Source: Geodermatophilus aquaeductus (GTDB lineage Bacteria > Actinomycetota > Actinomycetes > Mycobacteriales > Geodermatophilaceae). Taken from it: 64,000 bases of DNA. The translations under genes were made by a program, and so were the position numbers. The notes under the pieces are model-generated. The model worked only from the letters and a program-made list of their open reading frames with translations. It was not told the DNA's origin and searched no databases. Below are positions 15,762-18,118 of the stretch, in pieces. The stretch covers positions 1 to 64,000 of the forward strand of contig NZ_FXTJ01000016.1 of assembly GCF_900182545.1 (NCBI RefSeq), read 5' to 3'. Numbering within the stretch: the first letter of the stretch is position 1; each line of letters opens with the position of its first letter.

Positions 15762-15992
15762 TCAGTCGGCGAGCAGGGCGGCGTGCGCGCCGAGGCGGTG
15801 GGCCAGGGCCGCGGCGGTACCGGTGGAGCGCAGGACGTCGGCCAGCAGGGCGGCCAGCTCGTCGGCAGCGGCGGCGTCGAGCGGGAGCCCGGCGGCCGGC
15901 TCGTCGAGCTCGGCGCGCAGTGCGGCGTCGAGGTCGGCGGTGTCGAGGTCGTCCAGCTCGACGAGCACGAGCGGGCGCGCGGTGGTCTCCAT
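15762..15992 (-). CDS. small acidic protein, function unknown
   Basis: 76 aa, rich in Ala, Leu, Asp and Glu (VELDDLDTADLDAALRAEL, then AAADELAALLADVLR). It should be mostly alpha-helical and soluble; no cysteines, signal peptide or known motif. ATG 15992 is preceded by GAGGAG. It lies 110 bases downstream of the signal peptidase-LamG gene on the same strand and could share its transcript. I do not recognise the family. Confidence 0.55.
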   Translation of the reverse strand: METTARPLVLVELDDLDTADLDAALRAELDEPAAGLPLDAAAADELAALLADVLRSTGTAAALAHRLGAHAALLAD

Positions 15993-16102
15993 GACGGGCT
16001 CCTCGGGGTCGGCGGGCCGGGATCCGTCCCGGCGACGACGACACTGACCGGCGCTCCGCAGCGCCGGCTGCGGGCAACCGCACGATTCCCGCAAGACCGT
16101 GC

Positions 16103-17494
16103 TCAGCGCCCCGCCCGCGCGTGGTCGGCCACCTGCGCCGGCGTCAGCACCAGGGCGCTGTAGGTCGACACCGACGCCAGCGACCCGGCGAACCAGTTGC
16201 TCGCCGGGCGCACCGGCCAGGCGTCGTTGCTCATCGCGTCCCAGCCGATCCGCCAGAAGCCGCTGTACGCGCGCCCCGCGGTCATCGTCGCGTCGGAGGC
16301 CACCAGAACGCCGTCGACGTAGAGCCGCGAGCCGGGCGCCGCCGCCGCGTTCGTCATGGTGACGACGGCGACATGCCACGTGCCGTCGTTGTAGGCGGAC
16401 GTCGAGGCGATCGTGCGGAAGGTGCCGGCGGTGGGCTGCAGGCCGAAGAGCAGCCGCCCGTCGTTGGCCATGTAGAGGACCCGGTCGACGTCGGCGGAGG
16501 CGCCGGTCTCGGACGTGGCGACGGCGACCAGCACGCCGCCGCGGGTCGTCGTCGTGCGGAACCAGACCTCGTAGCTGAACACCGTCGGCGCCGTGCCGCC
16601 GGTCGACGTCGTCACGTGGTCGTCGACGCCGTCGAGGGAGACCGCACGGCCGCCGTCGCGCGGGCACGGCCCGGCGACGCCGAGGGTGACCCCGTTGCGG
16701 TAGGTGCCGTTGGTCGCCGTGCCGGAGGTGTCGGCCGCGGCGGTGCCCCCGGTCTCCTGCAGCGCGTAGTACCGGCCGGCCACAGCGGTGCCGGTGACCC
16801 CGCCGGCCCCGACGTCGCGCGCGGCGTTGCCGCAGGTGAAGTAGGTGGCCGAGGTCAGCCCGCCGGAGTCCCCGCCCGTCGTGCCCGCGAAGGCCGCCCG
16901 GCCGGGGACGGCGACCAGCGCGACCACCAGCGCCGCCGTCCCGGCCGCCGCGACGGCGATCAGCGGCCGGCGCCACCGCGCCCGGGGCCCGGGCTCCGCG
17001 GCGGGCCCGCGGTACAGCAGCGCCGCCGCGACCACGACGGCGAGCCCGGCCCCGGCGCCGGCCAGGGGCGCGGCCCGGTGCCCGGCCACCCAGACGGCGG
17101 CGTGCCCGACGACGGGCACCCGCAGCGCGCCGACCCCGTGCACGGCGCCCCGGTCGACCGGCGTCCGGTCGACCTCCGGGTTCGCGTCGCCGCGCAGCAC
17201 CAGGCGCCCGTCGTCGCCGACCTGCACCAGCCGGTGCAGCCGCAGCGCGCCCGGGTGGTCGGGGTCGTCGACGAGCAGCACCTGACCCGGCACGAGGTCG
17301 TCGCCGGCCGGCCGGGCGAGGACGACGTCGCCGACGGCCAGAGCCGGCGCCATCGACCCCGACCCGACGACCGTGGCCTCCCAGCCGGCCGCGACCGGCA
17401 CGACCGACCACAGCACCAGGCCGCCGAGGGTGGCCAGCAGGCCGCGGGCCAGGGTCGACACCAGCAGCGCGGTCCAGGTGCCGCGGGCGGACAC
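16103..17494 (-). CDS. SipW-type signal peptidase I fused to an exported LamG domain
   Basis: 463 aa. Residues 1-165 are a signal peptidase of the SipW/ER type: a first membrane helix (13-33), SGSMAP with catalytic S47, LHRLV with H87 replacing the bacterial Lys, RGDANPEVD with D103, and a second helix (145-162). A third hydrophobic helix (177-199) follows, ending in AFAGTT (201-206), much like the region after the signal helix of the TasA-like neighbour (AFSATT). Residues about 230-463 form a LamG/concanavalin-like domain (VSLDGVDDHVTT, LYVDGVLVA). So the chain looks like peptidase plus its own substrate. GTG 17494 lies 21 bases after the TasA-like gene. The fusion is seen; self-processing is inference. 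Confidence 0.85.
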   Translation of the reverse strand: MSARGTWTALLVSTLARGLLATLGGLVLWSVVPVAAGWEATVVGSGSMAPALAVGDVVLARPAGDDLVPGQVLLVDDPDHPGALRLHRLVQVGDDGRLVLRGDANPEVDRTPVDRGAVHGVGALRVPVVGHAAVWVAGHRAAPLAGAGAGLAVVVAAALLYRGPAAEPGPRARWRRPLIAVAAAGTAALVVALVAVPGRAAFAGTTGGDSGGLTSATYFTCGNAARDVGAGGVTGTAVAGRYYALQETGGTAAADTSGTATNGTYRNGVTLGVAGPCPRDGGRAVSLDGVDDHVTTSTGGTAPTVFSYEVWFRTTTTRGGVLVAVATSETGASADVDRVLYMANDGRLLFGLQPTAGTFRTIASTSAYNDGTWHVAVVTMTNAAAAPGSRLYVDGVLVASDATMTAGRAYSGFWRIGWDAMSNDAWPVRPASNWFAGSLASVSTYSALVLTPAQVADHARAGR

Positions 17495-17515
17495 GGGAGC
17501 GGCTCTCGGCGCGGG

Positions 17516-18118
17516 TCAGACGCTCTGCGCCTCCCACGTGAAGCCGACCTGCGCGCTGCCGCCCTGGGTGCTGTTGGGCGCGGAGGCGCTGAAGGCGTAG
17601 GTGAACCGGTAGGCGCGGGTCTCCGACGCCGCGCCGGTCGGGTTCCAGGTGCCGTAGCCGGCGGCGTAGGTCGCGGCGGTGAACCCGGCGAGGGTGCCGC
17701 TGTAGACCGCCGCGCCCGTGGGCAGCGTGGTGAAGTCGCTGCAGTCGGCGGCGGCGCCCGTCCCCTGCGTGACGGTCAGCGTCAGGTACGACGACAGGGC
17801 ATTCGTCGTGGTCAGGCCGGTGCCGTACAGCTTCACGCTCGAGGGCACGGTGCCGGTCGAGGTCACCGCGATGCAGCGGGTCCCCGTGGCGCCGGGCGCC
17901 ATGCGGGTCACGGTGAACAGCGCGGTGCCGGCGTCGTTGTCGGTGAGGGTCACCGTGCCCGCGGCCCAGGAGTCCGGGCCGTTGTCCGTCGTCGCCGAGA
18001 ACGCCGACGACGAGGACTGCCAGACCAGGCCGACGGAGGCGGCGAGCCCCAGCACGGGGGCGAGGACGGCGGCGGCGAGGGTGGCGCGGCGGCCGGGGCG
18101 GCGGACGGTGCGGGTCAT
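17516..18118 (-). CDS. TasA/camelysin-like exported protein
   Basis: 200 aa. A basic start (TRTVRRPGRRATL), one hydrophobic helix (about 14-33) and then SSAFSATTDNGPDSWAAG, the typical context of SipW-dependent exported proteins such as TasA and camelysin. The mature part is a Ser/Thr/Gly-rich beta protein of about 160 residues with two cysteines. In Bacillus such proteins form biofilm fibres; here assembly is not shown. ATG 18118 has GGGAGAG upstream. It is the first gene of a pair with the SipW-type peptidase that follows at 21 bases. Confidence 0.72.
   Translation of the reverse strand: MTRTVRRPGRRATLAAAVLAPVLGLAASVGLVWQSSSSAFSATTDNGPDSWAAGTVTLTDNDAGTALFTVTRMAPGATGTRCIAVTSTGTVPSSVKLYGTGLTTTNALSSYLTLTVTQGTGAAADCSDFTTLPTGAAVYSGTLAGFTAATYAAGYGTWNPTGAASETRAYRFTYAFSASAPNSTQGGSAQVGFTWEAQSV

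Follow-up and report, generated by a model that had tools for sequence, protein, structure and literature searches.

The 64,000-nucleotide stretch of Geodermatophilus aquaeductus DNA analyzed here (contig NZ_FXTJ01000016.1, positions 1 to 64,000; hereafter the window) encodes a SipW-type signal peptidase fused in one chain to an internal signal helix and a LamG domain, directly downstream of a gene for a TasA-like exported protein. Related loci carry unrelated domains behind the same peptidase and helix, the junction between helix and cargo has a conserved signal-peptidase site, and the first 13 residues behind that site resemble the predicted mature N-terminus of the TasA-like protein. We put at about even the chance that the pair is a two-gene fiber unit, in which the peptidase is made together with a TapA-like fiber initiator or cap. 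The open reading frame (ORF) of the fusion (16103-17494, minus strand) starts 21 bases after the TasA-like ORF (17516-18118, minus strand), and the elements of the pair are as follows.

17516..18118, minus strand: TasA-like exported fiber-subunit candidate, 200 amino acids, ATG start
17966..18004, minus strand: TasA-like residues 39-51 (AFSATTDNGPDSW), predicted mature +1 to +13, donor-strand-like by sequence alignment, preceding model residue 52
16103..17494, minus strand: SipW-type peptidase, signal helix and LamG fusion, 463 amino acids, GTG start, one unbroken frame
17390..17476, minus strand: transmembrane helix 1, residues 7-35 (AlphaFold model, AF2)
17105..17389, minus strand: peptidase domain, residues 36-130, with Ser47, His87, Asp103 and Asp109 invariant
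17021..17104, minus strand: transmembrane helix 2 region, residues 131-158 (AF2 helices 131-137 and 141-158)
16967..17020, minus strand: Arg-rich loop, residues 159-176, predicted cytoplasmic n-region of the internal signal (Lys/Arg column counts)
16904..16966, minus strand: helix 3, residues 177-197, h-region of the internal signal (AF2 helix 177-194 and alignment)
16895..16903, minus strand: predicted cleavage motif G198-R199-A200, cut before A201 (small-residue columns)
16856..16894, minus strand: donor-strand-like block, residues 201-213 (AFAGTTGGDSGGL), by profile similarity to TasA-like N-termini
16103..16855, minus strand: LamG cargo, residues 214-463 (PF13385 match), with conserved Cys221 and Cys277

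The single frame joining peptidase, helix and LamG, proposed in an earlier sequence-only reading of this DNA, is unbroken in the window and in many other genomes. A protein search that scored 7994 candidates returned at least 216 proteins, counting the window's own, at E≤0.001. Most of the matches listed (120) span nearly the whole query; among their named sources are Geodermatophilus, Blastococcus, Modestobacter, Frigoribacterium, Arthrobacter and Allobranchiibius. Where the proteins are named, it is mostly as “signal peptidase I,” “LamG-like jellyroll fold domain-containing protein” or “hypothetical protein,” generic names under which the architecture can be found in databases. In the window's family, 18 of 96 genomes carry the fusion (own included; one cut by a contig end; rows read by eye) and one further genome has a decayed copy. 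Peptidase matches were found in at least 12 of 396 genomes of a phylum sample (E≤1e-15, window's own included) and at least 107 of 394 genomes of a class sample (E≤1e-12), both counts being lower bounds because these scans scored just 8 or 9 candidates per genome. A scan of named genomes with a peptidase-only pattern gave 77 loci; the Geodermatophilus tzadiensis fusion is locus L005. The LamG part shows no start of its own. Of 54 fused ORFs, eight have an in-frame ATG 12-45 codons ahead of the junction, and in none of them is it accompanied by a ribosome-site-like motif (ATG codons, not GTG codons, being tested). In the window, GTG codons precede the junction by 47 and 11 codons, and no ribosome site was seen at either. 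A sequencing-error or gene-calling artifact has a vanishingly small probability; nothing in the window speaks for it and, although there are a few interrupted or shortened copies elsewhere (L053, L080, L117, L043), the recurrence of the uninterrupted join in many independent genomes rules it out. Among the shortened copies, L043 (same contig as L120) and L117 keep the peptidase and have the LamG part mostly lost or out of frame.

We call the enzymatic domain SipW-type, and not SipW, because it scores below both curated cut-offs (TIGR02228: 34.5 bits against 51.85, E 1.7e-8; NF046067: 21.3 bits against 190, E 1.6e-4); both models match 16 of 16 members of set A3 at E≤0.001. A profile of 16 diverse peptidase members matches human SEC11C (E 3.1e-15). 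Ser47, His87 and Asp103, which the sequence-only reading had taken as the active site of a SipW/endoplasmic reticulum (ER)-type enzyme, are invariant in all 119 proteins with these columns (window's included, out of 120 listed), and the domain has the S26B residue pattern, a His in place of Lys beside the catalytic Ser, plus an Asp. The choice of aspartate fares less well: Asp109 is invariant too (52-sequence alignment A1), and it is Asp109, not Asp103, that aligns in the SEC11C alignment with what we take to be the catalytic aspartate of SEC11. In the window's genome, nothing but the fusion matches its peptidase part at E≤0.001. A second TIGR02228 match there is weak (24.3 bits) and reads from its sequence as a Lys-type enzyme, with V-V-K-R replacing H-R.

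The AlphaFold model of the fusion, built from a 52-sequence alignment, has a mean predicted local distance difference test score of 88.5 and a predicted template modeling score of 0.57, with unreliable relative domain placement. It contains long helices at residues 7-35, 141-158 and 177-194, an unstructured segment at 195-216 and a well-ordered LamG part. The latter matches PF13385 over residues 288-456 (E 6.6e-15; 56 bits, above the cut-off of 27.6). Foldseek returned generic jelly-roll folds, including clostridial neurotoxin binding domains, an arabinanase domain and CBM40, which we read from the model as a common concanavalin-type fold only, implying neither a ligand nor toxicity. Cys221 and Cys277 are each kept in 117 of 120 aligned proteins, consistent with a LamG part outside the cell. 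The chain would span the membrane three times, with helix 1 anchoring the enzyme, helix 2 returning the chain to the cytoplasm and helix 3 serving as an internal signal peptide that exports the cargo.

Column statistics at the junction were taken from the best 120 of the 216 matches, the window's own included and not thinned for kinship. Columns 165-178, before helix 3, hold a median of six Lys/Arg (none in 1 of 120 proteins), and the net charge of residues 159-178 is positive in 80% of them. Position 200 (-1) is Ala, Ser, Gly or Thr in 120/120 and position 198 (-3) in 118/120, while positions 199 and 201 vary; position 202 (+2) is Phe or Tyr in 115/120 and position 206 is Thr in 97/120. A positive loop, a hydrophobic helix and a small-x-small motif, in this order, make up the arrangement of a signal peptide inside a protein, and the cargo indeed lies behind a signal-peptidase site like that of the TasA-like protein, as had been proposed. 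Cleavage at the junction is likely, and self- or sister-cleavage by the peptidase is plausible. Helix 3, with 18 residues in the model, could also span the membrane as a permanent anchor, so that the uncut LamG or other domain would be a tethered substrate- or wall-binding arm. We consider this unlikely, because conservation of small residues at -1 and -3 between variable neighbors, recurring with unrelated cargos, marks a signal-peptidase site, which a permanent anchor could do without.

The cargo behind this site is swappable, as judged from the unrelated domains that follow the same peptidase, helix and site. The 77 loci comprise 48 LamG fusions, 25 FnIII-like fusions and three without such cargo (L076 is cargo-less; L043 and L053 are shortened or interrupted), with L080 left out. 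The FnIII-like cargo, about 105 residues behind the same peptidase and helix, occurs in Curtobacterium, Microbacterium and one Frigoribacterium; its label is a by-eye reading of the sequence, for which Pfam gave no domain. The phylum sample contributed 12 loci besides the window's, nine fusions and three cargo-less, with LamG, RCC1 repeats, WD40 plus fn3, and ALK/LTK-type Gly-rich cargos and several cargos without a Pfam match; examples fetched from the class sample added bacterial immunoglobulin (Ig) domains. In all, 182 distinct peptidase domains were sorted into 67 LamG, 26 FnIII-like, 57 cargo-less and 32 other, L080 again being left out here and in the two analyses that follow; of the 32, 21 were kept, nine set aside as odd and two moved to the cargo-less, or “free,” class by eye (L109 and L110).

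Shuffled tails set the chance level for a junction finder: it recognized 62 of 67 LamG fusions against 8.1 expected, 17 of 26 FnIII-like fusions against 2.2, and only 2 of 59 cargo-less peptidases against 0.8; these classes were set by profile or tail length, apart from the two moved by eye. The “other” fusions (19/21 against 3.7 expected) and “odd” fusions (3/9 against 1.5) were sorted by eye after their tails had been read, so the 19/21 is no independent test. A tree of 140 peptidase domains was built from few columns, with odd rows and near-copies left out, and 59 of its 137 inner branches are open. On this tree the cargo-less label has to change at least 11 times, and well-supported branches force five of these changes. 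Since the “free” rows include the shortened or interrupted L043, L117 and L053 and the contig-end L149, some forced changes are recent losses or cut contigs. The LamG fusion L031 falls among the FnIII-like fusions with weak support. The suggestion that the LamG part is the enzyme's own substrate, forming a self-releasing surface protein, is accordingly kept in part: a fused cargo does sit at a signal-peptidase site, but LamG is only one of several.

Three further arrangements were seen among the peptidases. In L172:2309-3751 (minus strand), an EAL domain (PF00563, 1e-25) shares a single frame with a signal-peptidase-like domain, possibly a coupling of the peptidase to cyclic-di-GMP signaling. 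L171:2259-3950 (plus strand) combines a SipW-like peptidase with a C-terminal domain that is weakly Hpt-like (PF01627, 2.1e-4, below cut-off). L177, L183, L185 and L189 (family f8) hold clusters of three or four SipW-type peptidases, cargo-less and fused, with A-[YFW]-x-D junctions.

The pairing with a TasA-like gene, for which the sequence-only reading had advised a search in other genomes, is nearly constant. A TasA-like gene ends at most 125 bases upstream of the peptidase ORF in 74 of 78 ORFs, the gap being measured to the start codon nearest the TasA-like stop, which favors short gaps; four of 82 peptidase segments were dropped from this count (L080; L040 and L065, for motif mismatch; and a second weak match in L042). 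At the cargo-less loci, the peptidase lies between two TasA-like genes in 13 of 15. At L076, three TasA-like genes stand in a row after the cargo-less peptidase.

The window's TasA-like protein consists of a signal helix (1-38), a donor-strand-like segment (39-51) and a beta-sandwich (52-200). We call it TasA-like because it scores 14.8 bits with PF12389, below the cut-off of 22.5; this family matches 23 of the 36 proteins of set A2 at E≤0.1 (best 6.8e-7). The model of the window's protein has the TasA fiber as its best structural match, with the beta-sandwich fold of TasA predicted; TasA was not among the matches listed when the PDB was searched by sequence with a profile of the TasA-like proteins, and the link to the solved structure is by fold only. 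In the cited part of the TasA fiber study, mature TasA begins with the donor strand (residues 28-38), and F29, I32 and F39 touch the next subunits (PMC9674648); the mature protein is given as 28-261 (PMC10151520). The structural alignment begins with residue 52 of the TasA-like model on TasA residue 40, which places TasA-like 39-51 (mature +1 to +13) at the donor-strand position; the model is unstructured at 36-47. The N-terminal block and the fold are consistent with a TasA-like protein that would polymerize by donor-strand exchange.

The same block lies behind the cut site of the cargos. The AF-x-x-T-T motif noticed in the sequence-only reading (AFAGTT and AFSATT) is present in both the fusion and the TasA-like protein. 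Profiles of 89 non-redundant fusions and 29 TasA-like N-termini were compared ungapped and anchored at the cut site. Their similarity exceeds the 95% null level at -1 and, between +1 and +13, at nine positions of 13 (best at +2, +13, +8 and +6), and at no position from +14 to +28; the hydrophobic helix positions -8 and -7 match too, unlike -6 to -2. When a TasA-like signal-region profile was run on the fusions, 39 of 120 listed proteins and 8 of 82 locus ORFs reached 5 bits, compared with 0 of 120 shuffled controls and 18 of 8910 other ORFs. The resemblance extends beyond the cut site as far as +13 and corresponds to the donor strand of TasA, which suggests fiber capping over simple release of a surface protein.

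According to the cited portions of PMC9674648 and PMC10151520, TapA, a non-fiber protein with a donor-strand-like N-terminus, starts TasA fibers, its Ig fold is complete in itself, and SipW removes the signals of both TasA and TapA. A cargo with a donor-like N-terminus and its own fold, as in TapA, leads us to propose capping. In this model, the upstream gene would provide the TasA-like fiber subunit and the downstream gene the SipW-type peptidase, the internal signal helix and the secreted cargo. The peptidase, in its own copy or a neighbor's, would cut both the TasA-like precursor and the cargo junction after small-x-small. Once released, the cargo would use its N-terminus (A-F-x-x-T-T...) as a TasA-type donor strand, occupying the groove that is open at one end of a TasA-like fiber; having no groove with which to pass growth on, the cargo would start, cap or anchor the fiber and display its LamG domain there.

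Some results weigh against this proposal. The cargo block and the TasA-like block of the same locus show no covariation beyond phylogeny, the TasA-like signal-region profile misses the window's own junction, for which reason we relied on the column statistics instead, and peptidase recognition may be what keeps the shared block conserved. Should the block from +1 to +13 serve SipW recognition only, the cut-off LamG would be an independent secreted lectin-like protein. This account is improbable in our view, yet it carries real weight: a conserved site and block suffice for processing, and the lack of covariation agrees with it, whereas the ending of the block where the TasA donor strand ends and the near-constant TasA-like neighbor do not favor it. 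Conservation reaching to +13 is, moreover, not a known requirement of signal peptidases.

For the fiber-initiator proposal we would tentatively, and at somewhat less than even confidence, go one step further and see in these loci a modular, self-processing fiber-tip system of Actinomycetota, with peptidase, internal signal and exchangeable donor-strand tip protein in one chain. The cut would release the starter or cap at the assembly site in a fixed ratio to the enzyme, and lineages would swap the displayed cargo behind a constant junction. A peptidase that carries a swappable substrate raises the questions of cleavage in cis and of how donor-strand fibers are started in Gram-positive bacteria, and suggests TasA-type fibers with exchangeable tips in Actinomycetota; the peptidase plus a small-x-small-x-aromatic junction gives a sequence handle for finding what such fibers display.

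One further feature lies just past the fusion gene.

16048..16067, no strand assigned: perfect G+C inverted repeat without a T run (repeat and fold)

It is a possible end of the two-gene unit; a scan for consensus promoters and terminators found no promoter- or terminator-like site. A small acidic ORF of 76 amino acids (15762-15992, minus strand) was considered as a third gene of the unit and rejected, having no relative in the fetched loci.

Parts of this arrangement have counterparts in known systems. Viral polyproteins with internal signal peptides use an internal helix as the signal, and cleavage by a signal peptidase releases the protein behind it; the enzyme is then the host's, whereas the fusion carries its candidate enzyme on its own chain. 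SEC11, an S26B, ER-type signal peptidase, shares the Ser-His-Asp type and the profile match given above, but the matched chains, of 177-211 residues, leave no room for a cargo such as the fusion carries. In the open-access literature searched, outside which most subscription papers lie, and as far as titles and abstract openings show, no SipW-LamG or other peptidase-substrate fusion was described, nor any TasA-type fiber with exchangeable tips in Actinomycetota. The Bacillus cereus sipW-calY operon, with SipW and camelysins together (PMC10151520), resembles the cargo-less loci, and the passage cited mentions no fusion. A close likeness, on the cited portions of the two papers, is to the Bacillus subtilis tapA-sipW-tasA operon, which has a SipW-type peptidase, a TasA-fold subunit and a non-fiber partner with a TasA-like N-terminus. 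Here, however, partner and peptidase are one chain, and the partner is lineage-variable and in the window is a LamG domain, not the Ig-type domain that follows the N-terminus of TapA; the fused cargo would at most work like TapA and is not a TapA. As far as we have found, the architecture is a real, widespread and apparently undescribed variant of the SipW-TasA kind.
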